A stretch of 37,109 nucleotides of DNA from Herbiconiux sp. (GTDB taxonomy: Bacteria > Actinomycetota > Actinomycetes > Actinomycetales > Microbacteriaceae). The notes beneath the pieces were generated by a model. It did not search any database. It was not told the DNA's origin and saw only the letters and a list, made by a program, of their open reading frames with translations. The stretch covers positions 1 through 37,109 of the forward strand of contig NZ_JAHFUW010000045.1 in NCBI RefSeq assembly GCF_023264855.1, in the 5' to 3' direction. This document shows, piece after piece, positions 14,553 through 28,609 of this stretch (position 1 is the stretch's first letter; each line of letters opens with the position of its first letter). The translations under genes were made by a program, and so were the position numbers.

Positions 14553-16055
14553 TCACGCGGTCAGCGCGATGTACTTCTCCTCCAGGAACTCCAGGATGCC
14601 CTCGCTGGAGCCCTCGCGGCCGAGTCCGCTCTGCTTCACGCCCCCGAACGGCGCCGCCGGATCGCTGACCACTCCGCGGTTGACGGCGACCATCCCGGCC
14701 TCCAGCCGGCCGGCCACCGCGATCGCCTCGCGTTCCTCGCCGAACACGTAGGCCATCAGGCCGAAGACGGTGTCGTTGGCCATCCGCACGGCGTCGTCGA
14801 CGTCGTCGAAGCGCACCACGGCCGTGACCGGCCCGAAGATCTCATTCTCGGTGATCTCCGATCCGTGCCGCACGCCCGTCACCAGCGTGGCGTCGTAGAA
14901 GGCGCCCGCCGACGAGCTGCGGCCGCCCTGCACGACGGTCGCGCCGTCGCGCACGGCGGAGTCGACGAGGGCCGCCACCTTGTCGCGCTCCTTCACCGAG
15001 ACGAGAGCACCGAGCTGGTTGGCGTGGTCGAGACCCGGGCCCACGCGCAGACCGCCGAGCTCCTGGGCCATCCGGGCGGCGAACTCGTCGTGCAGCGAGG
15101 AGTGCACGTAGAAGCGGTTCGCCGCGGTGCACGCCGAGCCTCCGTTGCGCATCTTGGCGAGCAGCGACTCCCGCACCGTGAGCTCGAGGTCGGCACCCGG
15201 CAACACGATCACCGGAGCGTTGCCGCCGAGTTCCATCGAGGCGCTCACCACCGTGTCGGCGCAGGCGTGCAGCAGCTCGCGCCCCACCTCGGTGGAGCCC
15301 GTGAACGACAGCTTGCGCACCGCCGGATGGGCGAGCATCTCGGCCACGACCGGCCCGGTACGCAGCGGGGTGACGAGGTTGACCACCCCGGGCGGGAAGC
15401 CGACCCGGCGCAGCACGTCGACGACGTAGGCCGCGGTCAGCGGCGTCTCGCGGGCCGGCTTCAGGATGACGGTGCACCCGGCGGCGAGCGCGGGCGCGAG
15501 CTTGCGGGTGGCCATCGCGGCGGGGAAGTTCCACGGGGTGATCAGCAGCGACACCCCGATCGGCTGGCGGTCGACCAGGATGCGCTTGTCACCCGCGGGC
15601 GAGAGCCGGTACTCCCCCGGAATGCGCACGGCCTCCTCGGCGAACCAGCGGAAGAACTCCTTGGCGTAGTTCGCCTCGCCGATCGCGTCGGCGTACGACT
15701 TGCCGTTCTCACGGATCATGATCTCCGCGAACAGCTCCACCTCCTCGGTGAGCACCTCGTATGCGGCGCGCAGCAGCTCGCTGCGCTGCCGGGGCGCGGT
15801 GGCGGCCCACGACTCCTGGGCGGCCGAGGCCGCCTCGACCGCCTCGAGGCAGTCCTCGCGGGTGGCGACGGCGAAGGAGGCGATCGTGCTCCCGTCGGCG
15901 GGATCGATCACGGGGAACGTCGCGCCCTCCGAGCCCGGCCGCCATCGGCCGTCGATGAACAGCTCGGCGATGAGGTCCGAAGAGGTGGGGCCCGAGGGGG
16001 TGGGGCCTGAGGGGGTGGAGCCCGAGGAGGCGGGCGTGCCGGTGGTGATGGTCAT
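14553..16055 (-). CDS. Aldehyde dehydrogenase, succinate-semialdehyde dehydrogenase type
   Basis: 500 residues. Landmarks are TPWNFPAAMATRKLAPALAAGC (N176), FTGSTEVGRE (NAD-binding), MELGGNAP (general base E275), GGSACTAANRF (catalytic C309), EIFGPV, and the closing PFGGVKQSGLGREGS. The pattern is closest to GabD-type NAD(P)+-dependent succinate-semialdehyde dehydrogenases, which make succinate for the TCA cycle; other semialdehydes are possible. The first ~26 residues are a Ser/Gly/Pro/Thr tail created by a 15-bp tandem repeat and are not part of the usual enzyme. It is the last gene of the seven-gene operon, 16 bases after the alcohol dehydrogenase, with a weak ribosome site. It probably oxidises the aldehyde released by the HpcH/HpaI aldolase. 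Confidence 0.92.
   Translation of the reverse strand: MTITTGTPASSGSTPSGPTPSGPTSSDLIAELFIDGRWRPGSEGATFPVIDPADGSTIASFAVATREDCLEAVEAASAAQESWAATAPRQRSELLRAAYEVLTEEVELFAEIMIRENGKSYADAIGEANYAKEFFRWFAEEAVRIPGEYRLSPAGDKRILVDRQPIGVSLLITPWNFPAAMATRKLAPALAAGCTVILKPARETPLTAAYVVDVLRRVGFPPGVVNLVTPLRTGPVVAEMLAHPAVRKLSFTGSTEVGRELLHACADTVVSASMELGGNAPVIVLPGADLELTVRESLLAKMRNGGSACTAANRFYVHSSLHDEFAARMAQELGGLRVGPGLDHANQLGALVSVKERDKVAALVDSAVRDGATVVQGGRSSSAGAFYDATLVTGVRHGSEITENEIFGPVTAVVRFDDVDDAVRMANDTVFGLMAYVFGEEREAIAVAGRLEAGMVAVNRGVVSDPAAPFGGVKQSGLGREGSSEGILEFLEEKYIALTA
15985..16029 (-). repeat. 15-bp tandem repeat, three copies, in the 5' end of the aldehyde dehydrogenase gene
   Basis: On the plus strand, GTGGGGCCCGAGGGG (15985-15999) is followed by copies at 16000-16014 (one change) and 16015-16029 (two changes). 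It encodes a repeated Pro-Ser-Gly-Pro-Thr tail before the dehydrogenase fold. The frame is kept. Confidence 0.85.
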
Positions 16056-16071
16056 GGTCTGCTTTCGGGGG

Positions 16072-17349
16072 TCAGCGGTCGCGCACGGCCGCGGAGGCGA
16101 TGAGTTCGCGGTCGCCCGCGTGGGCGGCCTCGAGGAGGGTCAGGATCGTCTGCGGCTCGGATCCGATCGGCGAGATGTCGACCAGCCGCTTCGCCCGCAG
16201 GGCGAGTTCGGCGATGCGCGGCAGGTCGTCGCGCGAGACGCCGATGTCGGCCAGCCGCACCGGGATGCCGATGGTGCGGCACAGCTGGGCGACCTTGTCG
16301 ACCGCCGCCTGCGCGGCCACCCAGGGGTCGCTCTCGGATCCGCCGAGAGCAGCGTCGATCGCCGCGAGCTTGTGCGGGATCACGGGCACGCAGGCCTGCA
16401 GCACGTAGGGGATCATCAGGCCCGTGCCGAGGCCGTGCGGCGTCTTCGTGATGGCGCCGATCGGATACTGCAGCGCGTGCGAGAGATGGGTTCCGCTCGG
16501 CCCGAACGACATCCCGGCCAGCAGGCTCCCGTAGGCCACCTGGGCGCGCGCGTCGCGATCGCCGCCGTCGGCCACCGCGCGGGCGAGGTGGGGGGCGATC
16601 CGCCGCACCGCCTCGAGCGCGAGGTGGCCGGCGAACAGGTTGTGGCCGGTGAACACCGGCAGGGTCACCGACCAGTCGAGGGGCAGCACGGCCGCGGTGT
16701 ACGACTCCAGGGCGTGCACGAGCGCGTCGATGCCGGCGTAGGCCGTGACCGAGGGCGGAGCGCCGAGGGTCAGTTCGGGATCGACGACGGCCGCGACCGG
16801 AATGAGGTGGGGGCTCGAGATGCCGATCTTCATCTCCTGGTCGGGGTCGGAGATCACCGCGACGGGGGTCACCTCCGACCCGGTGCCCGCCGTGGTGGGC
16901 ACCGCCACGATGGGCAGGATCGGCCCGGGCACCTTGTTCTCGCCGTAGTAGGCGCCGAGCGGTCCGCCGTGCGCGACGAGGAGGGCGATGAGCTTGGCCG
17001 CGTCGAGCGCGCTGCCGCCGCCGTAGGCGAGCACGACGTCGGGCGAGAAGCCCGCGGCGACGGCGCCGGACGCGGTGAGGGAGTGCACGGGCAGCTCCGG
17101 CAGCACCTCGGTGTGCACGAGCACGGTGAGGCCGGCCTCGTGCAGCTCGCCGAGCAGCCGCACGAACTCCGGCGAGTCGGCGAGGAAGGGGTCGACCACG
17201 GCGAACACCTTCCGGCCGTGCTCGGCGAGCAGGCTGGGCAGCTGCCGGCGCACGCCGTAGCCGAAGTGGATGCGCGGGGGCAGTCGCAGCGTGCCGGTCC
17301 CGGTCGCGAACTCGCTCGGACGCTCGTTCTGGGCGGTCGTCCTAGGCAC
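16072..17349 (-). CDS. Iron-containing (group III) alcohol dehydrogenase
   Basis: 425 residues from GTG 17349, with a GGAGG ribosome site five bases upstream and an 8-base overlap with the SDR gene. Family III signatures are YGGGSALDAAK (NAD-binding, residues 109-119) and PTTAGTGSEVTPVAVI (151-166). Metal ligands appear as D208 and H212 (AGIDALVHALES), H291 and H305 (THLSHALQYPIG ... TPHGLGTG). The two last histidines are 14 residues apart, as in FucO. Relatives include 4-hydroxybutyrate dehydrogenase, maleylacetate reductase and 1,3-propanediol dehydrogenase. Beside a succinate-semialdehyde-type dehydrogenase and an aldolase, an alcohol/aldehyde interconversion in the same route is likely. 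The exact substrate is inferred only. Confidence 0.93.
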   Translation of the reverse strand: MPRTTAQNERPSEFATGTGTLRLPPRIHFGYGVRRQLPSLLAEHGRKVFAVVDPFLADSPEFVRLLGELHEAGLTVLVHTEVLPELPVHSLTASGAVAAGFSPDVVLAYGGGSALDAAKLIALLVAHGGPLGAYYGENKVPGPILPIVAVPTTAGTGSEVTPVAVISDPDQEMKIGISSPHLIPVAAVVDPELTLGAPPSVTAYAGIDALVHALESYTAAVLPLDWSVTLPVFTGHNLFAGHLALEAVRRIAPHLARAVADGGDRDARAQVAYGSLLAGMSFGPSGTHLSHALQYPIGAITKTPHGLGTGLMIPYVLQACVPVIPHKLAAIDAALGGSESDPWVAAQAAVDKVAQLCRTIGIPVRLADIGVSRDDLPRIAELALRAKRLVDISPIGSEPQTILTLLEAAHAGDRELIASAAVRDR

Positions 17350-18112
17350 TGAAACCTCCGTCGACCGGCAGCACCACGCCGCTGATGTGGCTGGCCAGGT
17401 CGCTCATCAGCCACGCCGCCGCCTGGCCCACCTCGGCGCCGGTGCCGGCCTTGCGGAGCGGGGTCGCCGCGATCCGTGCCTCCACTCCCCCGGGGATGGC
17501 GATGCGGGTCTGCGCGAGCATCGGCGTCTCGGTCGGACCGGGGGCGAGCGCATTGACGCGCACGCCCAGGGGCCCGTTGTCGTGGGCCGCAGTGCGCGTG
17601 AGGCCGATCACGGCGTGCTTCGTGGCCTGGTACGCGCCCATGCCCGAGCTGCCCCGCAGCCCGCCGATGCTGCTCACGTTCACGATCGAGCCGGCGCCGG
17701 CCGCGCGCATCACCCGCAGCTCTTCGCGCAGGCACAGCCAGACCCCCTTGACGTTCACCGAGAGGATGCGGTCGAAGTCCTCCTCCGACACCTCGTCGAG
17801 CCGGCCGCCCTGCGTGAGGCCGGCATTGTTGAAGGCGCCGTCGAGCCGCCCGAAACGGTCGACCGTCGCATCCACCGCGCGCGCGACATCCCGTCCCGAG
17901 CTGATGTCACCGGTCGTCCAGGCCGCGTCGAAGCCCTCCGCGGTGAGCCCCTCGGCCGTCTCCCGGAGCGGGCCCTCGGTGCGCGCGACGAGCATGACGG
18001 ATGCTCCGTGCCCGGCGAACACCCGCGCGGCGTCCGCCCCGATGCCCGCGCTCGCGCCCACGACCAGCACGGTCTTGCCGCGCAGCATCCGGGAATCCTC
18101 ATGGTCTGTCAT
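17342..18112 (-). CDS. Short-chain dehydrogenase/reductase (FabG-like SDR)
   Basis: 256 residues. The classical SDR pattern is complete: GASAGIG (19-25), NNAG (95-98), catalytic S148 (NVSSIGG), Y161 and K165 (YQATK), then PGPTETPML and the C-terminal VVLPVDGGFSA. It oxidises or reduces a secondary alcohol/ketone with NAD(P). In this operon it could form the beta-keto acid that the BKACE enzyme cleaves, which is an inference from context. The ribosome site AGGAA lies five bases before the ATG. The gene begins 51 bases after the aldolase stop and overlaps the next gene by 8 bases. Confidence 0.93.
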   Translation of the reverse strand: MTDHEDSRMLRGKTVLVVGASAGIGADAARVFAGHGASVMLVARTEGPLRETAEGLTAEGFDAAWTTGDISSGRDVARAVDATVDRFGRLDGAFNNAGLTQGGRLDEVSEEDFDRILSVNVKGVWLCLREELRVMRAAGAGSIVNVSSIGGLRGSSGMGAYQATKHAVIGLTRTAAHDNGPLGVRVNALAPGPTETPMLAQTRIAIPGGVEARIAATPLRKAGTGAEVGQAAAWLMSDLASHISGVVLPVDGGFSA

Positions 18113-18163: not shown

Positions 18164-18955
18164 TCAGCCATAGGTCACCGTGCGGCCGGCTCGCACGGCG
18201 GCCGCCGCCGCGGAACCCAGCAGGCTCGCGTCGTTGCTCATCATCGTGAACAGGTAGCCCGCGTCGACCGCCGCCTGCACCGAGGCGGCGCTCGCCCCGC
18301 CCGCGTTGCCGATCGGCACCCCGGCGGCCCGGCAGTCCCGGATCGCACCGGCGATCAGCGCGACGACCTCGGGGTCGTCTTCGGTACGGCCCTCGCTCGT
18401 CGACAGGTCTGCGGCGCCGATCAGCAGGGCGTCCACCCCGTCGACCGAGGCGATGGCCCCCGCGGCCCGGGCGGCCGCCGCGCTCTCGATCTGGGCGATC
18501 AGCACGACCTCCTCCTGGCCGTACCGCAGGTACTCCTCGCGCGGCAACGCGCCCCACGCACCGGCCCGGCTCGTGCTCCCCACTCCCCGGGTGCCGCGCG
18601 GGGGGAAGCGCACGGCGGCCGCGGCGGCCTTCGCCTCGGCGACCGTGTCGACGTGCGGCAGCATGATGCCCTCGGCGCCCGCGTCGAGCACCCGCTGCAC
18701 CACGCCGGAGTCCAGCGACGGGATGCGCACGATCGGTGAGACGCCCGCGAACAGGGCGACGCCGATCTGCCGGTAGGCCGACTCGATGCTCATGGCCGAG
18801 TGCTCGAGGTCGATGACCGCGAAGTCGAAACCGGCCAGCGCCACGAGCTCCATGCTCTCCATGGCCGGGATCTTCACCCAGGTGCCGATGGCCGGGCCAT
18901 CCGCCCGTTCCAGGGCCGCTTTGAACAGGCTCGCAGGCCTCGGGAGCGCGCTCAT
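18164..18955 (-). CDS. HpcH/HpaI family aldolase
   Basis: 263 residues. It is a class II, metal-dependent pyruvate-type aldolase. AVIDLEHSAMS gives catalytic H52, PIVRIPS gives R77, and the metal ligands are E157 (AQIESA) and D183 (GAADLS). The 26-residue spacing of E/D equals that of E. coli HpaI (E149/D175, from memory). Also present are GAEGIMLPHVDT and FPPRGTRGVG, the usual flexible loop. HpaI cleaves 4-hydroxy-2-oxoheptanedioate to pyruvate and succinate semialdehyde. The GabD-like dehydrogenase three genes downstream would accept that product. Its ATG overlaps the stop of the cupin gene (ATGA). Relatives act on other 4-hydroxy-2-oxo acids, so the substrate is open. Confidence 0.93.
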   Translation of the reverse strand: MSALPRPASLFKAALERADGPAIGTWVKIPAMESMELVALAGFDFAVIDLEHSAMSIESAYRQIGVALFAGVSPIVRIPSLDSGVVQRVLDAGAEGIMLPHVDTVAEAKAAAAAVRFPPRGTRGVGSTSRAGAWGALPREEYLRYGQEEVVLIAQIESAAAARAAGAIASVDGVDALLIGAADLSTSEGRTEDDPEVVALIAGAIRDCRAAGVPIGNAGGASAASVQAAVDAGYLFTMMSNDASLLGSAAAAAVRAGRTVTYG

Positions 18956-19866
18956 TTGGACGGGTAGTCGTCGGCGTTGAGCACCCAGCCCGAGGCCGAG
19001 AAGTCCTCCCGCGGGGGCGAGAAGATGTCGAGCAACTGCTGGTGCGGGCCGACCCCCTGCGTGGTGTGCACGGTGGGCGGCGGGATGATGCAGATCGACG
19101 GCGTGCCGATCTCCCGGTGCTCGTCGGCACGCCAGGCGGCCGAATCGGGGCCCCAGGGGTAGCGGATGTGATGCACGAACCGGCCTTTCACCCCGAAGGA
19201 GATCTGCTCGAAGTCGTCGTGGTGGTGAGGAGAGAGCTTGTGCTCGTCCCGCGGCTGCGGCTCCTCGGCCAGGAAGTTCACCATCAGGGTGGTGGTGCGG
19301 AAGATGCGGCCGAAGCGGCCCTCGGCGATCGGCGTGTCGGCGAGCGGGTAGACCCGCAGCGCGAAGCCGCCGACCGGATCGGGCCACGGCTCCAGCGGGG
19401 CCGCGCGCCGATCGGGCTCGGCGTAGGCCTGCGCGTTGAGCGCCGAGTCCCGAAGCACCTCGTCGACCGTGGAGAACACACGGATGAGCGGCCCGTCGGC
19501 GACGACCTCGATCGTGCTGTCTCCGGGAGGCACCACCACGAACGCCTCCTCCGCCACGTCCGCCACCGAGCCGCCGGCGATCACCCGCACCGGCGCGCTC
19601 TCGGAGTACATCAGCACCGCGTACTCGTCGGGCTGCCCCGTGCGGGTGAAGACATCCCCGGCCTTCGCATCGGAATAGGCGATCACGAGGTTCGCGGCGC
19701 GCGCGATCCAGGTGCGGCTGCCCGCGGCACTCACCTCGGTGGGCTCGGTGTCGTGGAAGGCGATCCACTGCGAGGGCTTGATCGGGGTGGACGGGTCGAC
19801 CGCCGTCGCCGGTGGCGGGGGCGCGGCGAGTTGCGACCGGATGTCGTCTTTGGCATACATCGTCAT
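18952..19866 (-). CDS. Cupin-fold protein of unknown function
   Basis: 304 residues. Start ATG 19866 has AAGGA eight bases upstream; a second ATG two codons later is less well placed. Two beta-sandwich halves are visible. The N-terminal one (residues ~45-110) contains WIARAANLVIAYSDAKAGDVFTR and ends in a VVVPPGDSTIEV turn. The C-terminal one has HKLSPHHHDDFEQISFGVKGRFVHHIRYPWG and IPPPTVHTTQGVGPHQQLLDIFSPP, which supply a His/Glu metal site (HHHDDFEQ and the later VH). This is a bicupin layout with the metal site in the second half. Such proteins in degradation operons act as isomerases, dioxygenases or hydrolases. I cannot name the reaction. No signal peptide. Confidence 0.82.
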   Translation of the reverse strand: MTMYAKDDIRSQLAAPPPPATAVDPSTPIKPSQWIAFHDTEPTEVSAAGSRTWIARAANLVIAYSDAKAGDVFTRTGQPDEYAVLMYSESAPVRVIAGGSVADVAEEAFVVVPPGDSTIEVVADGPLIRVFSTVDEVLRDSALNAQAYAEPDRRAAPLEPWPDPVGGFALRVYPLADTPIAEGRFGRIFRTTTLMVNFLAEEPQPRDEHKLSPHHHDDFEQISFGVKGRFVHHIRYPWGPDSAAWRADEHREIGTPSICIIPPPTVHTTQGVGPHQQLLDIFSPPREDFSASGWVLNADDYPSK

Positions 19867-19903: not shown

Positions 19904-20836
19904 CTAGAGCGTGACCTGGTCGACGCCTTTGAGGGCGAGCATCCGGCGTGCGTCGGCCGGGGTGGCGACGGTCTTGCCGAGGTCCTCCACCACCGCACGG
20001 ATCTTGCGCACCTGCTGCGCATTGCTCGTGGCGAGCTCGCCCTTGCCGATCCAGAGGCTGTCCTCGAGACCGACCCGCACGTTGCCGCCCAGCCACGCGC
20101 TGTGCGTGCCGAACTGCATCTGCGCACGGCCGGCGGCGAAGGCCGAGAAGTAGTAGTCGTCGCCGAAGAGCTTGTCGGCGATGGCCACCATGTGCGTGAG
20201 GTTCTCGTGATCGGCGCCGATGCCGCCCAGGATGCCGAACACGCCCTGGATGAGGAACGGCGGCCGGATGAGACCCCGCTGCACGAAGTAGGCCAGCGTG
20301 TAGAGGTGCCCGATGTCGTAGCACTCGAACTCGAACCGGGTGCCGAGCCCCTCGCCCAGCTCCCGCAGGGTGTATTCGATGCGGTCGAAGGAGTTGATGA
20401 AGGGGTGCGAGTACGTGTTGCGCACGTACTGCTCCTCCCAGTCGTATTTCCAGTCGGTGACCTTGTCGGCGATGCCCGAGTAGACGAAGTTCATCGAGCC
20501 CATGTTGAGCGAGGCGAGCTCGGGCGCGAAGCGCAGCGCGCCGGCCAGCCGCTCCGGCATGGTCATCGCCGAGGAGCCGCCCGTGGTGATGTTGATCACC
20601 ACGTCGGTCTTCTCGAGGATGCGCGGCACGATCTGCTCGTACACCTCGGCCTCCCAGGCGGGCCGGCCGTCGGGGTGGCGGGCGTGCAGGTGGATGATCG
20701 CCGAGCCGGCCTCGACGGCCTCCAGCGCGGAGCGTACGATCTGGTCGGCGTCCCGGGGCAGGTACTCGCTCTGCGAGGGCACGTTCACCGACCCGGTCAC
20801 GGCGGTGCTGATGATGACCTTCTCGGCCGCGCGCAT
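19904..20836 (-). CDS. BKACE (3-keto-5-aminohexanoate cleavage-type, DUF849) enzyme
   Basis: 310 residues. It matches the beta-keto acid cleavage enzyme family: VIISTAVTGSVNVPSQS at the start, the metal motif AIIHLHARHPDG (H49, H51), INITTGGSSAMT, LASLNMGSMNFV, FECYDIGHLYTLAYF, VFGILGGIGAD and WLGGNVRVGLEDSLWIGKGELA near the end. Family knowledge: these Zn enzymes condense a beta-keto acid with acetyl-CoA to give acetoacetate and a new CoA ester, and the family covers many substrates. The gene overlaps the upstream DUF6282 gene by one base (TGATG). The cupin gene follows after 37 bases. It is the key C-C bond-breaking step suggested for this pathway. Confidence 0.93.
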   Translation of the reverse strand: MRAAEKVIISTAVTGSVNVPSQSEYLPRDADQIVRSALEAVEAGSAIIHLHARHPDGRPAWEAEVYEQIVPRILEKTDVVINITTGGSSAMTMPERLAGALRFAPELASLNMGSMNFVYSGIADKVTDWKYDWEEQYVRNTYSHPFINSFDRIEYTLRELGEGLGTRFEFECYDIGHLYTLAYFVQRGLIRPPFLIQGVFGILGGIGADHENLTHMVAIADKLFGDDYYFSAFAAGRAQMQFGTHSAWLGGNVRVGLEDSLWIGKGELATSNAQQVRKIRAVVEDLGKTVATPADARRMLALKGVDQVTL

Positions 20837-21756
20837 CAGATGGACTCCTCGAGGCCGAGGAGGAAGGCGGTGTTGCGGCAGATCATCTGGCGCACGTCCT
20901 TCTCGGAGATCCCGTGGTCCAGCAGCTGCTGCACCACGTAGATGTAGCCATCGACGGGCAGCGGGTTGGTCTTCTGGCCGAGGTCGGAGTCGATCACGGT
21001 GCGCTCCGGCCCGACCTTGCGGATCCAGTCGACGAGCTGCGAGATGGGGAAGCCGGGAGCGGGCACGCCGGGGTGGTACATCGACATCTCGTGCTCGACG
21101 AACGCGCCGTAACCGAGCATCTCCTCCACGTCGCCCTCCGAGGCGTTCACGATGAAGTCGGGGTGGTGCAGCAGCAGTCGGCGCACGCCGTTCTCCTGCG
21201 CGGTGGCGAAGAGGGCCTTCATCGACTCGGCGTCGAGATGACCGCCCGACAGCATGATGCCGGCCTCGCCCACGAGCTGGGTGACCCGCACGGTCTCCGC
21301 GGAGACCGTGCCCGGGCTCGCCCACACCGACTCCTCCTTCTCCTCGAGGTTGGAACCCGCCGTGGGGAAGCCGTCGTCGTGACTGTGGGCACGGATGTGC
21401 TGGCCGGCCGAGACGGTCGGGCCCCACACGGCACGCCCGCCCATCTGGATGGCGACGGCCACCGCCGAGGGATTGATGCCGCCGACCTCGGAGTTGAGGG
21501 CCACACCGCCGTACGCCGGGGTCGGGGCGTCTTTCAGCAGCTCCTTCATCGCCAGCAGGTCCATCACGGTGTTGTGGTGGTGCGACTTGATCAGGATCGC
21601 GCGCATGTTGATGCGGGCCGCGTCGTAGGAGGCCTCGACGTGGTCGAGCCGGCGCGGGAACGGGCTGGGGCCGGAATGCACGTGAAGATCGACCGCTCCG
21701 TCGAGAACCTTGAGCAGTGCGGGGGATGGTGTGGTCATGTCGTCGGCGACGAGCAT
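20836..21756 (-). CDS. DUF6282-type metal-dependent hydrolase (amidohydrolase/PHP-like)
   Basis: 306 residues, first gene of the seven-gene operon. ATG 21756 was chosen because AAGGAGG lies seven bases upstream; an inner ATG at 21738 lacks one. The barrel opens with AVDLHVHSGPSP (HxH metal pair H25/H27). It continues with AILIKSHHHNTV, VWGPTVSAGQHIRAHSHDDGFP, GIMLSGGHLDAESM, RRLLLHHPDF and TVIDSDLGQKTNPLPVDGY, where the Asp is the expected last metal ligand. The pattern fits the TIM-barrel amidohydrolase/PHP superfamily and the poorly characterised DUF6282 group. A hydrolytic step (lactone, amide or cyclic imide opening) is likely, but the substrate is unknown. Confidence 0.85.
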   Translation of the reverse strand: MLVADDMTTPSPALLKVLDGAVDLHVHSGPSPFPRRLDHVEASYDAARINMRAILIKSHHHNTVMDLLAMKELLKDAPTPAYGGVALNSEVGGINPSAVAVAIQMGGRAVWGPTVSAGQHIRAHSHDDGFPTAGSNLEEKEESVWASPGTVSAETVRVTQLVGEAGIMLSGGHLDAESMKALFATAQENGVRRLLLHHPDFIVNASEGDVEEMLGYGAFVEHEMSMYHPGVPAPGFPISQLVDWIRKVGPERTVIDSDLGQKTNPLPVDGYIYVVQQLLDHGISEKDVRQMICRNTAFLLGLEESI

Positions 21757-21780
21757 CCGAGAACCTCCTTGTGTTCGGAT

Positions 21781-21908
21781 TGCGTACTTTTGGTTCAGAT
21801 TACGGACATTTGGCGAATCTGTCCAGCCGGATCCCGCTGAATTCGCCGATTTCATCGACCGAGCGATGTTCGTCATGTGAAATTAGCAATTGCATTATGA
21901 ACATTTGC
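21781..21908. promoter_or_regulatory. Three related 13-base boxes in the divergent control region (candidate IclR operators)
   Basis: TGCGTACTTTTGG (21781-21793), TACGGACATTTGG (21801-21813) and TATGAACATTTGC (21896-21908) share the pattern TnnGnACnTTTGg. The first two start exactly 20 bases apart, two helical turns, on the same face of the DNA. Box 2 lies between the -35 and -10 of the leftward promoter and box 1 just after its start. Box 3 lies over the -35 of the rightward promoter. Each pair of boxes matches at 9-10 of 13 positions, judged by eye. An IclR regulator is encoded immediately to the right and is the natural candidate to bind. Confidence 0.5.
21797..21825 (-). promoter_or_regulatory. 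Sigma-70-type promoter of the seven-gene catabolic operon
   Basis: On the minus strand TGGACA (21825-21820) and TAATCT (21802-21797) are separated by exactly 17 bases. Transcription would begin near 21790, leaving a ~33-base leader before ATG 21756 that holds AAGGAGG. The region is the most AT-rich in the window. Confidence 0.6.
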
Positions 21909-21932
21909 TTGCTTTACTGGTGCTCGTACGAA
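21905..21932 (+). promoter_or_regulatory. Possible promoter of the IclR/ABC-transporter operon
   Basis: TTGCTT (21905-21910) and TACGAA (21927-21932) are 16 bases apart and would start transcription near 21939, upstream of GGAGG (21951-21955) and ATG 21962. It overlaps the third candidate IclR box. Confidence 0.4.
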
Positions 21933-21961
21933 GCCGCAGACCCTCGACGAGGAGGTGAGAG

Positions 21962-22738
21962 ATGACCGACACGGCCACCCCGACCGAAGACGACCCCCAG
22001 GTCATCCCGATGCCCGACACCGAGCGGGGCGCGATCCAGTCCATCGAGCGCGCGGCCATGGTGCTGGCGCTGTTCGACCAGAACACCCGCACGCTCTCCC
22101 CGGCACTCGTGTCCGAGCGCCTCGGGCTGAACCGCACGACCGCCCACCGCTACCTGCAGTCGCTGCAGGCGTCGGGTTTCCTCGGTGCGGCCTACGGACC
22201 CGGGCCGCTGATCGATCAGCTCTCGGGACTGGTCTCCAGCCGGCAGCAGATCCTCTCCCTCGCGCCGTCGATGCTCCGGCAGCTGTCGGATCGCACCGGG
22301 CTCACCGCCGTGCTCAGCTTTCTCGGCCGCTCCGGAGCCGTCGTCGGCCACGTCGAGGAGGCCAACTCCGGAACGATCGTGCTCACCGTGCGCGTCGGCA
22401 CCGTGCTGGAGCTGAAGGCCGCGCAGTCCCGGGCGCTCCTGGCCTTCCAGTCCGACCCGGCGGCGGTGTCGCGGTTGCACGCCGGCCTCACCGCCGAGGA
22501 GGCCCGCCGGGAGAACACCGAACTGGCGCTGGTGCGCCGCGACCGCGTGGCCTGGGCCGATCTCGGCCGGATCGGGCTGGCCTCGGTGGCCGTCCCGGTC
22601 TTCGGCAGCGGCGACGTGCAGGCGGCCATGGCCGTGCTCGGCACGACGACGATGCTCCCCTCGTCCGAACAGTCCGCAGAGCGCGTGACGATGCTGAGAG
22701 ATGCCGCAGAGCAACTCAGCGCGATGGTGAACGGATAA
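21962..22738 (+). CDS. IclR-family transcriptional regulator 1
   Basis: 258 residues with GGAGG six bases before the ATG. The N-terminal winged helix-turn-helix reads IQSIERAAMVLALFDQNTRTLSPALVSERLGLNRTTAHRYLQSLQASGFL (residues ~25-75). The C-terminal effector domain contains QILSLAPSMLRQLSDRTGLTAVLSFL, VVGHVEEANSGTIVLTVRVGTVLELKAAQSRALLAF and IGLASVAVPVFG, the usual IclR ligand fold. The gene is divergent from the catabolic operon and first in the transporter operon. It probably controls both through the boxes in the 205-base gap, with a pathway intermediate as effector. It ends 6 bases before the permease start. Confidence 0.92.
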   Translation: MTDTATPTEDDPQVIPMPDTERGAIQSIERAAMVLALFDQNTRTLSPALVSERLGLNRTTAHRYLQSLQASGFLGAAYGPGPLIDQLSGLVSSRQQILSLAPSMLRQLSDRTGLTAVLSFLGRSGAVVGHVEEANSGTIVLTVRVGTVLELKAAQSRALLAFQSDPAAVSRLHAGLTAEEARRENTELALVRRDRVAWADLGRIGLASVAVPVFGSGDVQAAMAVLGTTTMLPSSEQSAERVTMLRDAAEQLSAMVNG

Positions 22739-22744: not shown

Positions 22745-23617
22745 ATGACCACCCCCACCCGAACCCGGCGGACCCCGCGCCCCGGCTGGCTCCTGCTGGT
22801 GCCGGCCCTCGCGCTGCTCGCCGGAATCCTGCTCGTGCCGCTCTTCCAGAGCCTGCTGCGCAGCATCGGCACCCCGGAATTCACGCTCGATCACTACGCG
22901 AGCCTGTTCACCGACGGGGTGACGCTGACCGTACTGGGCCGCACGGCGATGACGGCGGTGATCGTGACGATCGTCACGTTCCTGCTCGGCTACCCCTACG
23001 CCTACCTCATGACGAGGGTGGGGCCGCGCCTGCGCGGAGTGCTGCTCGTGATCGTGCTGATCCCGTTCTGGACCTCGGTGATGGCCCGCAACTACGCCTG
23101 GATCGTGCTGCTGCAGCGCGGCGGCCCGGTGCAGAGCGTGTTCGAGTTCTTCGGGGCCGGCGACATCGTCTTCCAGGGCAGCGTGGTGGGCGTCACCATC
23201 GCGATGAGCCAGGTGATGCTGCCGTTCATGGTGCTCCCGCTGTTCAGTACGCTCGGCGGCATCGACCGCAAGCTGCTGCTGGCCGCCCGCGGTCTCGGCT
23301 CGTCACCGCTGGTGGCGTTCTGGAAGATCTACTGGCCGCTGTCGCGCGGCGGGGTGGTCTCGGGCCTGATCCTCGTGTTCACCCTCAGCCTGGGCTTCTA
23401 CGTCACCCCGGCACTGCTCGGCTCCCCCCAGCAGTCGCTGATCGCCCAACTGCTCGCCCAGCGCACCACGCAGCTGCTCGATTTCGCCGGCGCGGGCGCC
23501 CTGGGCATCCTCGTGCTCGTGATCACCCTCTTGCTCGTCGCCTGGGCGAACCGCTTCGGCGGCACCATCTCGGCGATCGGGGTCGCCAGCACCTCGCGAA
23601 CGAAGGAGACCCGATGA
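22745..23617 (+). CDS. ABC transporter permease, spermidine/putrescine (PotB-like) family
   Basis: 290 residues with about six membrane helices. The first is WLLLVPALALLAGILLVPLF, followed by an extracytoplasmic loop TPEFTLDHYASLFTD. The cytoplasmic EAA loop reads LLLAARGLGSSPLVAFWKIYWPLS (Ala-Ala-x-x-Leu-Gly), which contacts the ATPase. The PotB/AfuB-type NYAWIVLLQRGGPVQ region is present. It starts 6 bases after the IclR stop with only a weak ribosome site, so it is likely translated by coupling, and overlaps the second permease by four bases (ATGA). The family imports polyamines but also many other small compounds. Confidence 0.92.
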   Translation: MTTPTRTRRTPRPGWLLLVPALALLAGILLVPLFQSLLRSIGTPEFTLDHYASLFTDGVTLTVLGRTAMTAVIVTIVTFLLGYPYAYLMTRVGPRLRGVLLVIVLIPFWTSVMARNYAWIVLLQRGGPVQSVFEFFGAGDIVFQGSVVGVTIAMSQVMLPFMVLPLFSTLGGIDRKLLLAARGLGSSPLVAFWKIYWPLSRGGVVSGLILVFTLSLGFYVTPALLGSPQQSLIAQLLAQRTTQLLDFAGAGALGILVLVITLLLVAWANRFGGTISAIGVASTSRTKETR

Positions 23618-24426
23618 CCGCCGCCCGTCGCCGCGACCGCGGAGTCGACCCGATCCCCTGGTGGCTGATCGCCCTCGGCGCGCTCGTGGCGCTCTACTTC
23701 ATCCTGCCGACCCTGATCGTGATCCCGCTGAGCTTCAGCTCCGCGTCGGCGTTCGAGTTCCCGCCGAAGGACTTCTCCCTTCGCTGGTACGAGAACTTCT
23801 TCACCGACCCGGTCTGGCTGACCTCGCTCGGCAACTCGTTCCTGGTCGCCGTGCTCGCCGCCCTCATCGCCACGGTGGTCGGCACGGCCGCCGCGGTGGG
23901 CCTCAACCGGCTGACCGGCCGGCTCGCCGGGTTCCTGCGCACCCTGCTGATGATCTCGATGGTCACCCCGGCGATCGTGGTGGCGGTCGCCGTGTACATC
24001 TCGTTCCTGCAGTGGCACCTGACGGGCAGCCTGCTCGGCTACGTGCTCGCCCACGCCGCTCTCGGCGTGCCGTTCGTGCTCGTGTCGGTGACGGCTGCCC
24101 TGGGCGGATTCGACGCGACCCTGCTGCGGGCATCCGCCTCGCTCGGTGCCTCGCCGCTGCGGTCGTTCGTGCGGGTGACGATGCCGCTGATCAGCCGCGG
24201 GGTGATCACCGGCGCCGTCTTCGCCTTCGTCACCTCGTTCGACGAGGTCGTGATCGCCCTGTTCCTGCGCTCGCCCACGTTCCAGACGCTGCCCGTGCAG
24301 ATGTACAACAGCGTGACGTTCGAGCTCGACCCCACCATCTCCGCCTCGTCGAGTCTCGTCGTCGTCGCGGTGACCATCATCTTCCTGGTGCCGCTGCTCA
24401 TCGGCAGCCGCAAGAAGACCCGTTAG
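23614..24426 (+). CDS. ABC transporter permease, spermidine/putrescine (PotC-like) family
   Basis: 270 residues. ATG 23614 overlaps the previous stop (ATGA), and GAAGGAG lies just upstream. Six membrane helices begin with WWLIALGALVALYFILPTLIVIPLSF. The PotC-like loop PKDFSLRWYENFFTDPVWLTSLGNSF and the EAA loop LLRASASLGASPLRSFVRVTMPLIS are clear, as is SFDEVVIALFLRSP, a family landmark near the C-terminus. It pairs with the PotB-like permease as the heterodimeric channel. Confidence 0.93.
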   Translation: MTAARRRDRGVDPIPWWLIALGALVALYFILPTLIVIPLSFSSASAFEFPPKDFSLRWYENFFTDPVWLTSLGNSFLVAVLAALIATVVGTAAAVGLNRLTGRLAGFLRTLLMISMVTPAIVVAVAVYISFLQWHLTGSLLGYVLAHAALGVPFVLVSVTAALGGFDATLLRASASLGASPLRSFVRVTMPLISRGVITGAVFAFVTSFDEVVIALFLRSPTFQTLPVQMYNSVTFELDPTISASSSLVVVAVTIIFLVPLLIGSRKKTR

Positions 24427-24435
24427 GAGACCGTC

Positions 24436-25587
24436 TTGACCATCTCGAGCAAAGAATCCGCGACCGCGCCGCCGGCATCGCCGTCCTCGCCCACAGCGCC
24501 CCGTCAGGGCACGCAGATCCGGCTGTCCGGCGTCACGAAGGACTACGGGCTCGCCGCGCCCGCCGTCGACGCCGTCTCCCTCACGATCCAGCCCGGCGAG
24601 TTCATGACCCTTCTCGGGCCGAGCGGATCGGGCAAGACCACCACGCTCAACCTCATCGCCGGTTTCGAGACGCTCACCTCGGGAACGATCGCCCTCGACG
24701 GCGCCGATGTGGGCACGCTCCCGCCGCACAAGCGCAACCTCGGCATGCTGTTCCAGAACTACGCCCTCTTCCCGCACATGACGGTGGCGCAGAACGTGGC
24801 CTACCCGTTGCGCGAGCGCAGAGTGCCCAAGGCCGAGATCGCGCGCCGTGTGGCCGAGGTGCTCGAGCTCGTGCAGTTGCCCGGGCGCGACCAGAACTAC
24901 CCGGCCCAGCTCTCCGGCGGGCAGCAGCAGCGGGTCGCCCTGGCCCGGGCCATCGTCTTCGACCCCGCCGCACTCCTGCTGGACGAGCCGCTCGGCGCCC
25001 TCGACCGCAACCTCCGCGGGGCGCTGCAGATGGAGATCCGCCGCATCCACCGCGAGGTGGGCTCGACCTTCGTGTTCGTCACGCACGACCAGGAGGAGGC
25101 GATGAACCTCTCCGACCGGATCGCGCTGTTCAACAGCGGGCACATCGAGCAGGTCGGCACACCCGAGGAGCTCTACCGCCGCCCGGACACCCTGTTCACG
25201 GCCCGCTTCCTCGGCGACTCCAACGTCTTCGACCTCGGCGGATCGCCCGTCGGGGCGAAGGCGAGCTGGGAGGACAGCACCTGGACGATCGATCCGGCGA
25301 CCATCGCCGGTCATCCGGGCGTGCGATCGCACGGCGCCGTCGTCGTGCGACCCGAGGACGTGCAGATCTCCCGCGACCTGCAGACGGTTCCGGCCGGCGC
25401 CAACGCCGTGCGGGCCACGGTGCGCGATCTCGAGTACATGGGCTCGTACCGCACCGTGATGCTCGACGTCGGTCAGGCCCGGCAGCTCGGCCGGGCCCGG
25501 ATCGACGCCCTCGACGCCGCCTTCGCGGTGGGCGACGAGGTCACCGCCTGGTGGAAGCCGGAGCGCCAGCGCGTCGTCGCCGTCTGA
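24436..25587 (+). CDS. ABC transporter ATP-binding protein (PotA-like, with TOBE domain)
   Basis: 383 residues from TTG 24436, the only start placed correctly (six bases) after AGGAG at 24425-24429. Walker A is GPSGSGKTTT (61-70), the Q-loop is Q107 (LFQNYALFPHMTV), the ABC signature is LSGGQQQR (159-166), Walker B is ALLLDEPLGALD (179-190), and the H-loop reads FVFVTHDQEEA. The C-terminal ~110 residues (from HGAVVVRPEDVQI) form a TOBE regulatory domain. It powers the PotB/PotC-like pair. The first 25 residues are a Ser/Ala/Pro-rich tail. A 118-base pyrimidine-rich gap follows before the binding-protein gene. Confidence 0.95.
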   Translation: MTISSKESATAPPASPSSPTAPRQGTQIRLSGVTKDYGLAAPAVDAVSLTIQPGEFMTLLGPSGSGKTTTLNLIAGFETLTSGTIALDGADVGTLPPHKRNLGMLFQNYALFPHMTVAQNVAYPLRERRVPKAEIARRVAEVLELVQLPGRDQNYPAQLSGGQQQRVALARAIVFDPAALLLDEPLGALDRNLRGALQMEIRRIHREVGSTFVFVTHDQEEAMNLSDRIALFNSGHIEQVGTPEELYRRPDTLFTARFLGDSNVFDLGGSPVGAKASWEDSTWTIDPATIAGHPGVRSHGAVVVRPEDVQISRDLQTVPAGANAVRATVRDLEYMGSYRTVMLDVGQARQLGRARIDALDAAFAVGDEVTAWWKPERQRVVAV

Positions 25588-25705: not shown

Positions 25706-26791
25706 ATGGTGTCCAGATCCAGAACCCTCACCATCACCCTCGGCCTCGTCGCCGTCACCGGACTTCTCTCCGGCTGCGCGGGAGGCTCGGCCGACGCCGG
25801 CAGCACCGGCGCGGCGGGCGGCGCCGACGCGCCGGCCACCATCACGTTCGTCGGCTACGGCGGCGGCGGCCAGGACGCCCAGATCGAGGCCTGGCAGAAG
25901 CCCTACACCGAGGCGAACCCGAACGTCACGTTCGTGAACACCTCGCCGCCGGACGTGGCCCAGGTCAAGGCGCAGGTCGAGAGCGGCTCCGTGCAGTGGG
26001 ACGTGATGGCGACGGCCCCGTACGCGGCGCAGCAGAACTGCGGCACGCTCTTCGAGAAGCTCGACCTGAGCGCGATCGACCAGACCGACCTCGTGGAGGG
26101 CACGGTGGGCGAGTGCTACCTCGGCAACTGGATCAACGCCACCCCGATCGCGTACCGCACCGACGCCTTCCCGGCCGGCGAGGGTCCCACGACGGTCGCC
26201 GACTTCTTCGACACCGAGAAGTTCCCCGGTCAGCGCGGCATCGTCACCAACCTGCAGAACGGCATCCTGGAGTATCCGCTGCTCGCCGACGGAGTGGCCC
26301 CCGACAACCTCTACCCGCTGGATGTCGACCGCGCCCTCGACAAGCTCGACACCATCCGCGACGTCACGACCTTCGCGCCCAACGTGGGCGCCCTGCAGCA
26401 AGCCGTCGAGGCCGACCAGGTCGACATGTTCCTGCTGCCCGACTCGCGCCTGGTTCCGCTGCTCCAGGGCGGGATGGACCTGACGATCGTCTGGGACGAG
26501 ACCGTCGCCTCGCTCAACGCCTTCGCCATCCCGAAGGGCGCTCCGAACAAGGATGCGGCCGTCGACTTCATCTCCAGCGTGGTCGAACCCGAGCAGGTCG
26601 CGAAGATCTCCGAGCTGCTCGGTGTGGCACCGGTGAACACGGCTGCGAAGCCGCAGCTGGACGAGTTCACGAAGCAGGTGGAGGTCTACGGTCCCGCCAA
26701 CACGGGCGGCACGGTGCTGCAGGACGTCGACTGGTACGCCGACAACTTCAACGACGTGTCGACCAAGCTCACCACCTGGCTGGCCGGATGA
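25706..26791 (+). CDS. ABC transporter substrate-binding lipoprotein (PotD-like)
   Basis: 361 residues. Lipoprotein signal peptide: basic start, hydrophobic LTITLGLVAVTGL, lipobox LLSGC with lipidated C24, then a Gly/Ala/Ser linker. The mature protein has the extracellular solute-binding fold: ATITFVGYGGGGQDAQIEAWQKPYTEANPNV, SVQWDVMATAPYAAQQNC, NATPIAYRTDAF, FFDTEKFPGQRGI and SLNAFAIPKGAPNKDAAVDFI. The ligand is not evident: PotD's polyamine-binding acidic/aromatic set cannot be confirmed by eye. It may bind the compound degraded by the neighbouring operon. Two internal cysteines (VEGTVGEC and AAQQNC) could form a disulfide. Confidence 0.92.
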   Translation: MVSRSRTLTITLGLVAVTGLLSGCAGGSADAGSTGAAGGADAPATITFVGYGGGGQDAQIEAWQKPYTEANPNVTFVNTSPPDVAQVKAQVESGSVQWDVMATAPYAAQQNCGTLFEKLDLSAIDQTDLVEGTVGECYLGNWINATPIAYRTDAFPAGEGPTTVADFFDTEKFPGQRGIVTNLQNGILEYPLLADGVAPDNLYPLDVDRALDKLDTIRDVTTFAPNVGALQQAVEADQVDMFLLPDSRLVPLLQGGMDLTIVWDETVASLNAFAIPKGAPNKDAAVDFISSVVEPEQVAKISELLGVAPVNTAAKPQLDEFTKQVEVYGPANTGGTVLQDVDWYADNFNDVSTKLTTWLAG

Positions 26792-26844
26792 CGCCCGGGC
26801 TCGCACTCGCGCCCCGCCACCCCGGAGATGTTCTTCCTCTGAAC

Positions 26845-26850
26845 TACGCT
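26845..26850 (+). promoter_or_regulatory. Probable -10 box of a leaderless promoter (second IclR gene)
   Basis: TACGCT is followed by six bases (TCAGGC) and ATG 26857. No Shine-Dalgarno is present. This suggests the second IclR gene also has its own promoter inside the operon. Confidence 0.5.
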
Positions 26851-26856
26851 TCAGGC

Positions 26857-27648
26857 ATGGTGAACACCGACGGCACGGGCGAGGCATCCGGTTCCGACAT
26901 CCAGGCGGTCGCCCGCGTCGGCCAGATCTGCTCCCTCTTCGGCCCGAACACGATCGAGCTGTCGGCGGCGGACGTGGCCGAGCGCCTCCACCTGAACCGC
27001 ACCACGGCGTACCGCTACTGCGCGTCGCTCGTGGCGGCCGGAATCCTCGAGCGCGGGCCCCGTCGCGGCACCTTCGTGCTGGGCGGCCTGATGCTGCAGC
27101 TCGGCATCCACGCGCTGAGCCGCCGGCAGGTCGTCGAGATCGCTCCGCCCCACCTCGCCGAGCTGGGCGCGGCCGTGCGCATGACGGCCGTGCTCAGCCT
27201 GTGGGGAGCGCGCGGCCCGGTCGTCGCCCTGGTGGAGGAGGACAAGAGCCGTACCGCGGTGGTGACGGTGCGCGCCGGTTCCCAGCTCGACGCCACGGCG
27301 GCGCAGACCCGCGTCTTCCTGGCCCATCTCGCCGACGAGCGTGCGATCGGCTGGCTGACCGAGGGCACCAGCTCGGCCCAGCGCGCCGAGCTCGAAGCGG
27401 CTGTGTACACCGCGCGGCGGGCCGGGTACTGCATCGCCTCGCAGTCCGGAGGCGTCTTCTCCGCGGCCGCGCCGGTGTTCGACGATTTCGGCATCGCGGC
27501 GACGGTCGGGCTGCTCGGCGCCGATCCGCAGGCGGACCTCTCCGCCGGCTCCCCCATCATCACCGAGCTGCTGAAGACCACGACGGCCCTCAGCACCGAA
27601 CTCCGCGGCACCCGAGAGGGACGGCAGAATGAGACCCCCGACCTATGA
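26857..27648 (+). CDS. IclR-family transcriptional regulator 2
   Basis: 263 residues. Winged helix: IQAVARVGQICSLFGPNTIELSAADVAERLHLNRTTAYRYCASLVAAGILE. The effector domain has VEIAPPHLAELGAAVRMTAVLSLWGARGPVVALVEEDKSRTAVVTVRAGSQL and the C-terminal SQSGGVFSAAAPVFDDFGIAATVGLLG. It is clearly a paralogue of the regulator at 21962-22738: the recognition helices differ by only a few residues (LGLNRTTAHRYLQSL against LHLNRTTAYRYCASL), so the two may share binding sites or compete. Its end overlaps the cyclase gene by 20 bases. A leaderless start with the TACGCT box is likely. Confidence 0.92.
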   Translation: MVNTDGTGEASGSDIQAVARVGQICSLFGPNTIELSAADVAERLHLNRTTAYRYCASLVAAGILERGPRRGTFVLGGLMLQLGIHALSRRQVVEIAPPHLAELGAAVRMTAVLSLWGARGPVVALVEEDKSRTAVVTVRAGSQLDATAAQTRVFLAHLADERAIGWLTEGTSSAQRAELEAAVYTARRAGYCIASQSGGVFSAAAPVFDDFGIAATVGLLGADPQADLSAGSPIITELLKTTTALSTELRGTREGRQNETPDL

Positions 27649-28609
27649 CGAACTCGCCTCGGCCGAGCCTCCCGGCTCGAGCTGGGACGTCTTCGGCCGA
27701 GACGACCAGCTCGGCACCGTCAACTTCCTGACCCCCGACCGCGTCAGAGCGGCTGCGCAACTCGTGCGCAGCGGCCGGCGCTTCGGGCTAGACCATCCGG
27801 TGACCGCGTTCGAGCCCTACCCGACCGGAACCCGGCATCCGCTGCAGCATCACGTCTTCGCGAACAACGAATGGCACCGCGACGACTGGGTCGACTCGTT
27901 CTACCTGCAGTCGTCGTCGCAGATCGACGCCCTCCGGCACATCGGGCACCCCCGGCACGGCTTCTACAACGGCCTCACCGCCGAGCGGAACGGGCCGGGC
28001 AGCACCGACCTCGGCGTGCACACCTGGGCGGCCGCGGGCATCGCCGGGCGCGGGGTGCTGCTGGACCTGCCGAGGTACTTCGAACGGCTGGGGCTGCCCT
28101 ACGACGCCACGGAGACGATCGTGGTGGATGCCCGGATGCTCGACGACGTCGCCGAGAGCCAGGGCGTGTCGTGGCACCCGGGCGACATGCTGCTGCTGCG
28201 CACGGGATGGGCCGAGCAGTACCTCGCGAAGACCCCCGAGCAGCGGCTCGCGACACCGTGGCGCCGCTCGCCGGGGCTCGCCCAGCGCGAGGAGATCCTG
28301 CGCTGGCTGTGGGACCACCAGATCGCGCTCGTGGCCGCCGACAACCTCGCCGTGGAGGCCGATCCGGTGATCGACAGCGACTTCCGCACCCCGGGCGAGA
28401 CCCCGCCGGAGAAGGGCGTCGACCACAGCGGCATGCTGCACCGGCCGCTCATCGCGCTGCTCGGCATGGCCCTAGGGGAGCTCTGGAAGCTCGACGACCT
28501 GGCGACGGACTGCGCCGCCGACGGGGTCTACGAGTTCCTGCTCACCTGCAAGCCGCTCAACCTGATCGGAGGCGTCGGCTCGCCGCCGAACGCGATCGCC
28601 CTCAAGTGA
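27629..28609 (+). CDS. Cyclase-family metal-dependent hydrolase
   Basis: 326 residues. It belongs to the 'cyclase' (PF04199) family, which includes kynurenine formamidase and isatin hydrolase. Signs are DQLGTVNFLTPDRVRAAAQLVRSGRRFGLDHPV, then the metal segment SSSQIDALRHIGHPRHGFYNG (Asp and His ligands; the usual first His of HxGTHxD is replaced), LLDLPRYFERLG, WHPGDMLLLRTGWAEQY, and DNLAVEADP ... LHRPLIALLGMALGELW, typical of the longer bacterial members. They open cyclic amides/imides or hydrolyse formamides. The start ATG lies inside the end of the IclR gene, so the two are coupled. It is the likely ring-opening or hydrolytic enzyme of the island. Confidence 0.9.
   Translation: MRPPTYDELASAEPPGSSWDVFGRDDQLGTVNFLTPDRVRAAAQLVRSGRRFGLDHPVTAFEPYPTGTRHPLQHHVFANNEWHRDDWVDSFYLQSSSQIDALRHIGHPRHGFYNGLTAERNGPGSTDLGVHTWAAAGIAGRGVLLDLPRYFERLGLPYDATETIVVDARMLDDVAESQGVSWHPGDMLLLRTGWAEQYLAKTPEQRLATPWRRSPGLAQREEILRWLWDHQIALVAADNLAVEADPVIDSDFRTPGETPPEKGVDHSGMLHRPLIALLGMALGELWKLDDLATDCAADGVYEFLLTCKPLNLIGGVGSPPNAIALK

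Follow-up and report, generated by a model that had tools for sequence, protein, structure and literature searches.

In the lower pathways of aromatic meta-cleavage (MhpA-F, HpaD-I) a pyruvate aldolase follows the hydration of an unsaturated 2-oxo acid. The anaerobic phloroglucinol cluster of Clostridium scatologenes, in the available part of its report, comprises a cyclase-family hydrolase, oxidoreductases and a triacetate-type BKACE, and acetoacetate is made (PMC10470551). Here we describe an island of 14 open reading frames (ORFs) at 14553-28609 of a 37,109-base contig (the window, i.e. the whole stretch of DNA analysed) from the 4.37 Mb genome of a Herbiconiux sp., which resembles both systems in part. 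With the phloroglucinol pathway it shares the cyclase family, oxidoreductases and a triacetate-type BKACE, the last judged from the name of model NF053538 rather than by comparison with the C. scatologenes protein; however, its HpaI aldolase, its two-cupin protein (bicupin), its DUF6282 protein and its aldehyde dehydrogenase (ALDH) have no counterpart in that part of the account (PMC10470551). The likeness to meta-cleavage lies in four relatives in which the bicupin-HpaI pair adjoins BphC, LigB-family or HpaD-like dioxygenases, whereas no ring-cleaving dioxygenase is present among the 12 island proteins scanned against Pfam and NCBIfam (PotB and PotC were named from sequence, position and homologues elsewhere), and the island has bicupin and DUF6282 in place of an MhpD-type hydratase and an HpaI-type in place of an MhpE-type aldolase.

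The minus-strand arm reads, in transcription order, DUF6282, BKACE, bicupin, HpaI, short-chain dehydrogenase/reductase (SDR), iron-containing alcohol dehydrogenase (Fe-ADH) and ALDH; the plus-strand arm reads IclR1, PotB, PotC, PotA, PotD, IclR2 and cyclase; and both start from a shared 205-base divergent region. An earlier note, made from the letters alone, had listed this inventory, and all 14 ORFs are indeed present in the order and on the strands it gave. Its description of an uptake-and-degradation unit with hydrolase-family genes and two families of C-C-cleaving enzymes holds, as do its domain calls for Aldedh, Fe-ADH, SDR, HpcH_HpaI, BKACE, DUF6282, both IclR proteins, Cyclase (Pfam/NCBIfam) and PotA, with the qualification that ALDH and HpaI lie under equivalog cut-offs. 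It had recognised no described pathway for the whole set, and our literature searches likewise found none, which is no proof of absence from print; as far as they reach the island is undescribed, and it consists of known enzyme families and two uncharacterised ones. We propose that it is an IclR-controlled catabolic island acting through the reaction classes set out below, a reading to which we give a probability of about 0.45.

Conservation of the cassette

The island is a conserved unit, and chance does not explain it. A further 34 non-redundant actinobacterial loci carry the gene set, for the most part in the same order, so that the conserved synteny on which the earlier note had staked its proposal is amply borne out. 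Loci were taken from about 20 kb around DUF6282 in the genomes bearing it, from 46 named-genome loci, from the bicupin matches within the family (22 of 398 genomes) and from chosen plasmid regions, giving 56 non-redundant bicupin loci and 34 cassettes (bicupin at least 60%, BKACE at least 65%, DUF6282 present). Many of the 56 were fetched via DUF6282, so its count among them is inflated; a census of 24 Microbacteriaceae loci was fetched via the bicupin profile alone (398 genomes, 22 with a match, E <= 1e-10). Across the phylum this profile gave a single match, to the genome of the window itself, in a sample of 396 Actinomycetota (E <= 1e-20), too few for phylogenetic profiling, and the family-level census was used instead. 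The 14 plasmid regions (nine of 27 bicupin-matching and five of 46 DUF6282-matching records) are examples picked by us, not a census; a plasmid search with the cyclase gave 161 matching records. Gene calls in unannotated loci came from a simple script, and some names given by eye were not library-checked.

DUF6282 was found in 13 of 99 related genomes (the window's own counted, one below the family cut-off), and the copies closest to that of the window come, among named genomes, from Herbiconiux (97%). The named hosts include Herbiconiux, Plantibacter, Microbacterium, Micromonospora, Actinoplanes, Streptomyces, Modestobacter, Microbispora and Umezawaea. HpaI is present in 33 of the 34, SDR, PotA, PotB and PotD in 31 each, PotC in 30, Fe-ADH and IclR2 in 29, ALDH and cyclase in 27 and IclR1 in 25, some absences being owed to short contigs or flanks. 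The order can vary with the set intact: Fe-ADH and ALDH have moved in locus L024, and the importer lies 3' of the SDR in L052-L055. Threonate-type kinase and dehydrogenase genes (below cut-offs) lie within or beside cassettes L051 and L126, and SnoaL-like genes recognised by eye, some in large predicted proteins, adjoin L035, L044, L049 and L127.

Pairwise protein distances fall into three blocks, DUF6282/bicupin/BKACE (correlations of 0.75-0.79), Fe-ADH/ALDH/SDR (0.79-0.86) and PotABCD (0.66-0.82). These blocks, and several bicupin loci that have no BKACE, would suit two unrelated routes under one promoter, bicupin, HpaI and DUF6282 serving one compound and SDR and BKACE another. We regard this as very unlikely given that BKACE falls in the tightest block together with bicupin and DUF6282, has bicupin within 1 kb in 35 of the 56 loci, and is found 3 kb from bicupin, with DUF6282 and HpaI, on an alphaproteobacterial plasmid (L085).

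Regulation of the two arms

Copies of GTTCRNNATNYGNA are common to eight aligned intergenic regions; in the window an exact copy stands at 21868-21881 and one-mismatch copies at 21773 and 21793. The motif was read by eye from these eight loci; in a test set of 27 other cassettes, which included L031, it gave 49 exact matches against 1.4 expected from first-order resampling. Thirty-six of the matches are upstream of DUF6282, IclR1, IclR2, PotB or PotD, one is upstream of BKACE and 12 are elsewhere, with the motif upstream of a cassette gene in 20 of the 27 loci. It may resemble the operators of PcaR/PobR-type IclR regulators, and the simplest reading would be one regulon spanning both arms.

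The bicupin and its aldolase partner

The tightest link in these loci, missed by the earlier note, is between bicupin and HpaI, with either DUF6282 or an extradiol dioxygenase alongside in different loci. Of the 56 loci, 54 have HpaI within 10 kb of bicupin and 49 have it within 1 kb; it is more than 2 kb away in L071, L081, L087, L135 and L136. In the census fetched via bicupin the corresponding figures, besides the window, are 24/24 and 22/24, with DUF6282 in 18 of these loci and BKACE and cyclase in 16 each. With four HpcH_HpaI genes in the 4.37 Mb of the window genome, the chance of a random one within 1 kb of bicupin is by our own arithmetic well under 1%. The pair is also carried on plasmids of Alphaproteobacteria, with DUF6282 and a TRAP importer (L080 and L085, the latter with BKACE and SDR as well). 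The window HpaI belongs to HpcH/HpaI class II and aligns through the motifs that carry the catalytic residues of characterised 4-hydroxy-2-oxoheptanedioate aldolases; it remains under the TIGR02311 equivalog cut-off (160.1 vs 368.8 bits).

A search of Pfam and NCBIfam at E <= 0.001 gave no family for the bicupin, and the earlier cupin call stands on an HxHx3E...H signature (H213, H215, E219 and H266, invariant across 28 bicupin sequences) and on a predicted two-cupin fold (predicted local distance difference test, pLDDT, 87.6). Oxalate decarboxylase and quercetinase head its fold matches, and lower down are the isomerases BacB and AerE; as these span isomerase, decarboxylase and dioxygenase, the fold leaves the reaction unfixed. 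A KdgF-like identity was rejected (E 0.2 only). The complete 3-His-1-Glu signature and the two top matches could indicate a ring- or beta-diketone-cleaving dioxygenase, with DUF6282 as hydratase or C-C hydrolase ahead of HpaI in a short, gallate-like route, and three loci (L062, L064, L066) do group bicupin, HpaI, IclR, a metabolite:H+ symporter-like gene and DUF6282 without BKACE or cyclase. We think this unlikely, as a separate extradiol dioxygenase stands beside bicupin-HpaI in L082, L084, L135 and L137, and as in L083 the bicupin clusters with an annotated RraA gene and with neither HpaI nor DUF6282.

Those four loci are among the ten bicupin loci that have no DUF6282. L082 (Rhodococcus opacus 9) encodes a BphC (415.4 vs cut-off 366.45) with an MhpA-type hydroxylase and an alpha/beta hydrolase, L084 (Sphingopyxis granuli) a LigB-family dioxygenase, and L135 and L137, from the window's own family, HpaD-like dioxygenases below cut-off, one of the two with a Rieske oxygenase. 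These four dioxygenases, used as probes, gave no match in the 46 bicupin loci with DUF6282, the 34 cassettes included (E 1e-15), and no extradiol enzyme is among the 12 scanned island proteins. L080, a locus with DUF6282, blurs this contrast in that it adjoins a pca cluster with an intradiol dioxygenase. In the annotation tables of L082 and L084, which may not be complete, neither a 2-keto-4-pentenoate hydratase nor a 4-hydroxy-2-oxovalerate aldolase is named; for L135 and L137 the judgement was made by eye. From this gene context the likeliest role of the bicupin is the missing hydration or tautomerisation ahead of HpaI, and that of DUF6282 is to provide the substrate in place of ring cleavage. 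A more specific formulation is tentative, and we doubt it more than we believe it: the bicupin would be a hydratase of cupin fold that acts on unsaturated 2-oxo acids and feeds HpaI, standing in for MhpD/HpaH without homology to them, and DUF6282 would be an amidohydrolase-type ring opener replacing the dioxygenase, the same lower pathway thus serving aromatic and non-aromatic rings in Actinomycetota and Alphaproteobacteria.

Separately, L128, L133 and L134 have bicupin-HpaI beside a D-2-hydroxyacid dehydrogenase-like gene (checked in L128, by eye in the others), together with a sugar-type ATP-binding cassette (ABC) importer and an LVIVD-like protein and without DUF6282.

DUF6282, a predicted metallohydrolase

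We found no paper naming DUF6282 in our literature search, and no meaningful sequence match in the PDB. The protein is predicted to form a TIM barrel (pLDDT 91.5), its top fold matches being PTE-like lactonases, organophosphorus hydrolases and other amidohydrolase-superfamily enzymes (10-16% identity, query template modelling score 0.49-0.64, among the 50 matches listed), and H28, H30, K60, H176, H201 and D261 are invariant across 41 sequences. In the predicted barrel and its ligand pattern of HxH, His, His and C-terminal Asp it would conform to the amidohydrolase superfamily, PTE-like lactonases included, with metal binding predicted; it differs from those lactonases in the low identity and lack of a PDB sequence match just given.

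The lactonases among its closest fold matches, the 2-keto-3-deoxy sugar-acid aldolases among the relatives of HpaI and the threonate-type genes beside L051 and L126 would be expected of a sugar-acid or deoxyaldonate pathway, in which DUF6282 would be a lactonase, HpaI a 2-keto-3-deoxy acid aldolase, and SDR and BKACE would act on a 2-deoxy-3-keto acid. SDR and BKACE reportedly act together in deoxyribonate catabolism. Nevertheless such a pathway is distinctly unlikely: the extradiol neighbours of bicupin-HpaI in four loci indicate aromatic-type chemistry, threonate-type kinase occurs in only 2 of 34 cassettes, and the related BKACE15 is reported, in the available part of the source, to act on neutral short keto acids (PMC11961710).

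DUF6282 also occurs in other settings. In L018 two divergent DUF6282 genes (9165-11027) precede a PIG-L-like deacetylase, GalB-like by eye, and an RraA-like gene that scores above the cut-off for 4-carboxy-4-hydroxy-2-oxoadipate aldolase (189.7 vs 179); this hints at a role of some DUF6282 enzymes in feeding a 4-oxalomesaconate route. A second module of DUF6282, HpaI-type aldolase, small single-domain cupin and succinate-semialdehyde-type dehydrogenase recurs on plasmids of Gemmobacter, Agrobacterium leguminum and Roseateles (L089, L090, L093), two of the three also having a GMC oxidoreductase and two an aminotransferase. In two metagenome-assembled genomes of Streptosporangiaceae (L071, L070) an SDR 73-74% identical to that of the window stands beside a second DUF6282 of 24-25% identity, accompanied in L071 by a Baeyer-Villiger-type flavin monooxygenase (below cut-off) and a thiamine pyrophosphate enzyme.

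BKACE, cyclase and the remaining enzymes

The window BKACE exceeds the curated cut-off of NF053538 (Table 1) and matches solved structures 3e02 (368 bits) and 8rio (319 bits). The same model is passed by the BKACE of cassette L054 and by four of six BKACE genes from non-cassette bicupin loci (L085, L084 twice, L128), and not by those of L081 and L080, the latter gene passing a 3-oxoadipate model and sitting in a pca cluster. BKACE15 of Paracoccus denitrificans, a close relative at 319 bits, takes several short neutral beta-keto acids, and its physiological role is given as unknown in its own host in the part of the source available (PMC11961710). A 3-oxoacid CoA-transferase A gene lies within the 20 kb around 4 of the 34 cassettes (L022, L043, L045, L126) and a thiolase around two, and the window genome has three CoA-transferase A genes elsewhere; acetoacetate as the BKACE product fits these genes. 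The SDR has another SDR and levodione reductase as nearest solved relatives. In L126, a gene resembling 3-hydroxyacyl-CoA dehydrogenase follows HpaI, with the SDR 7 kb away, which weakly suggests that the SDR produces the beta-keto acid for BKACE.

The cyclase has LQSSSQIDALRH where a 31%-identical relative has HTGTHIDALCH (HxGTHxDxxxH), and QxxxQxD replaces HxGTHxD in all 13 cassette cyclases aligned. The metal site, and with it the reaction, may therefore differ from those of isatin hydrolase or the phloroglucinol enzyme, and the ordinary cyclic-amide or formamide hydrolase of the earlier note is not upheld. Its presence at diverged bicupin loci (L129-L131, L136) indicates that the cyclase belongs to the system.

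This motif also bears on whether the island is a phloroglucinol/triacetate-type pathway, with the SDR as phloroglucinol reductase or 3-hydroxy-5-oxohexanoate dehydrogenase, the cyclase as dihydrophloroglucinol cyclohydrolase and BKACE as triacetate acetoacetate-lyase. NF053538, the model that BKACE passes, is that of a 3,5-dioxohexanoate:acetyl-CoA acetone transferase; the C. scatologenes route, as far as its report is available, uses a cyclase-family ring opener and a BKACE, and its dehydrogenase TfD is 3-hydroxyacyl-CoA-dehydrogenase-like, a type of gene seen in L126 and L084 (PMC10470551). Such an assignment is nonetheless improbable. The pathway's cyclase is reported, in the same available part, with a conserved metal site (PMC10470551), whereas HxGTHxD is absent from 13/13 aligned cassette cyclases, and the only solved structure that the window cyclase matches is uncharacterised. 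No TfD-like dehydrogenase is among the 12 scanned proteins, and the L126 probe matches one of the 34 cassettes, its own (E 1e-15). The related BKACE15 takes several short neutral beta-keto acids, and no job would be left for DUF6282, bicupin, HpaI and ALDH.

The best ALDH match is of succinate-semialdehyde dehydrogenase (SSADH) type, at 491.8 bits against a TIGR01780 cut-off of 646.35, and it reaches no cut-off among the 25 NCBIfam models listed; with HpaI likewise under its equivalog cut-off, succinic semialdehyde is not established, and the oxidation to succinate of the earlier note is not supported. Fe-ADH is nearest, among solved proteins, to methanol and 1,3-propanediol dehydrogenases and their relatives. 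By the PotA subfamily score and the PotD-type binding protein the importer belongs to the PotABCD type, and the nearest solved relatives of PotD, which are polyamine-, gamma-aminobutyrate-, agropine- and mannopine-type binding proteins, hint at a small, charged solute.

A proposed route

The proposal takes as established the gene content, its conservation, the families, the shared motif and the predicted folds, and infers from them each reaction, the order and the substrate. The island would be substrate-induced under IclR control, and PotD with PotBCA would import a small carboxylate-bearing compound. The cyclase-family hydrolase would prepare this compound, Fe-ADH and ALDH joining in if its side chain is an alcohol or aldehyde. 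DUF6282 would then hydrolytically open a non-aromatic ring or lactone to an unsaturated 2-oxo acid, which the bicupin would hydrate or tautomerise to a 4-hydroxy-2-oxo acid, and HpaI would cleave this to pyruvate and an aldehyde or keto acid, an aldehyde from this step being oxidised by ALDH. The SDR would oxidise a 3-hydroxy acid to a short neutral beta-keto acid, from which BKACE, with acetyl-CoA, would form an acyl-CoA and acetoacetate, the latter to be activated by CoA-transferases encoded elsewhere in the genome. Kojic or comenic acid was considered as substrate on chemical grounds; a literature search returned nothing relevant and neither is claimed.

Several observations weigh against this route. 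Cyclase, Fe-ADH, ALDH and SDR are each absent from some cassettes. HpaI and bicupin have a distance correlation of 0.47, weaker than the 0.77 of BKACE and bicupin, and all these correlations are uncorrected for species relatedness; two of the 56 bicupin loci (L040, L083) have no HpaI within 10 kb. Dioxygenases and decarboxylases are among the bicupins with metal ligands of this kind, as the top fold matches show. The contrast between loci with DUF6282 and loci with an extradiol dioxygenase is not clean: six of the ten bicupin loci without DUF6282 gave no extradiol match either, at E 1e-15 with probes drawn from the four extradiol loci and with the loci themselves related, and in L087, where DUF6282 is present, a gene annotated as YgiD, of the extradiol family, is found behind a LysR gene at 7.8 kb from bicupin. 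Among the genes annotated in L084 are a MaoC-type gene and one for a 2-hydroxymuconate tautomerase, which could perform the hydration or tautomerisation assigned to the bicupin. Finally, five of the 27 test cassettes lack an exact motif and two carry it only elsewhere.

Features of the island and its surroundings

Coordinates and supporting matches are collected in Table 1. Beyond the cyclase, which it overlaps by 8 bases, lies a converging metallo-beta-lactamase-fold gene on the minus strand (28602-29255); an alkaline phosphatase gene at 29438-31414 adjoins the island, and 35288-36973 encodes a PIG-L deacetylase domain fused with a methyltransferase domain.

Table 1. Features of the island in window coordinates, with strand and basis of assignment.
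Feature	Position	Strand	Basis
ALDH, SSADH-like but under SSADH cut-off	14553..16055	-	PF00171 494 bits; 27/34 cassettes
Iron-containing alcohol dehydrogenase	16072..17349	-	PF00465/PF25137; 29/34 cassettes
SDR; putative 3-hydroxy-acid dehydrogenase feeding BKACE	17342..18112	-	PF13561; 31/34 cassettes
HpcH/HpaI class II pyruvate aldolase family	18164..18955	-	PF03328 113.9 bits
Bicupin, unnamed family; putative hydratase/tautomerase ahead of aldolase	18952..19866	-	Signature and predicted fold
BKACE, 3,5-dioxohexanoate:acetyl-CoA acetone transferase model	19904..20836	-	NF053538 468.2 vs cut-off 430 bits
DUF6282, predicted amidohydrolase-superfamily metallohydrolase	20836..21756	-	PF19799 204.8 bits vs cut-off 26.8
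Divergent promoter region with IclR-operator-like motif GTTCRNNATNYGNA	21757..21961	.	Conserved motif copies
IclR regulator 1	21962..22738	+	PF09339 and PF01614
PotB-type ABC permease	22745..23617	+	ORF; homologues in 31/34 cassettes
PotC-type ABC permease	23614..24426	+	ORF frame; 30/34 cassettes
PotA-type ABC ATPase	24436..25587	+	TIGR01187 359.5 vs cut-off 355.6
PotD-type solute-binding lipoprotein	25706..26791	+	Nearest solved binding proteins
IclR regulator 2	26857..27648	+	PF09339 and PF01614
Cyclase-family hydrolase, altered metal motif	27629..28609	+	PF04199 51.8 vs 23.1; 27/34 cassettes

Implications

The comparison gives DUF6282 and the unnamed bicupin specific, testable roles. It suggests that one aldolase module has been coupled to differing ring-opening front ends, and the shared cassette would be a marker for the use of one compound, which at a guess is possibly derived from plants or fungi.

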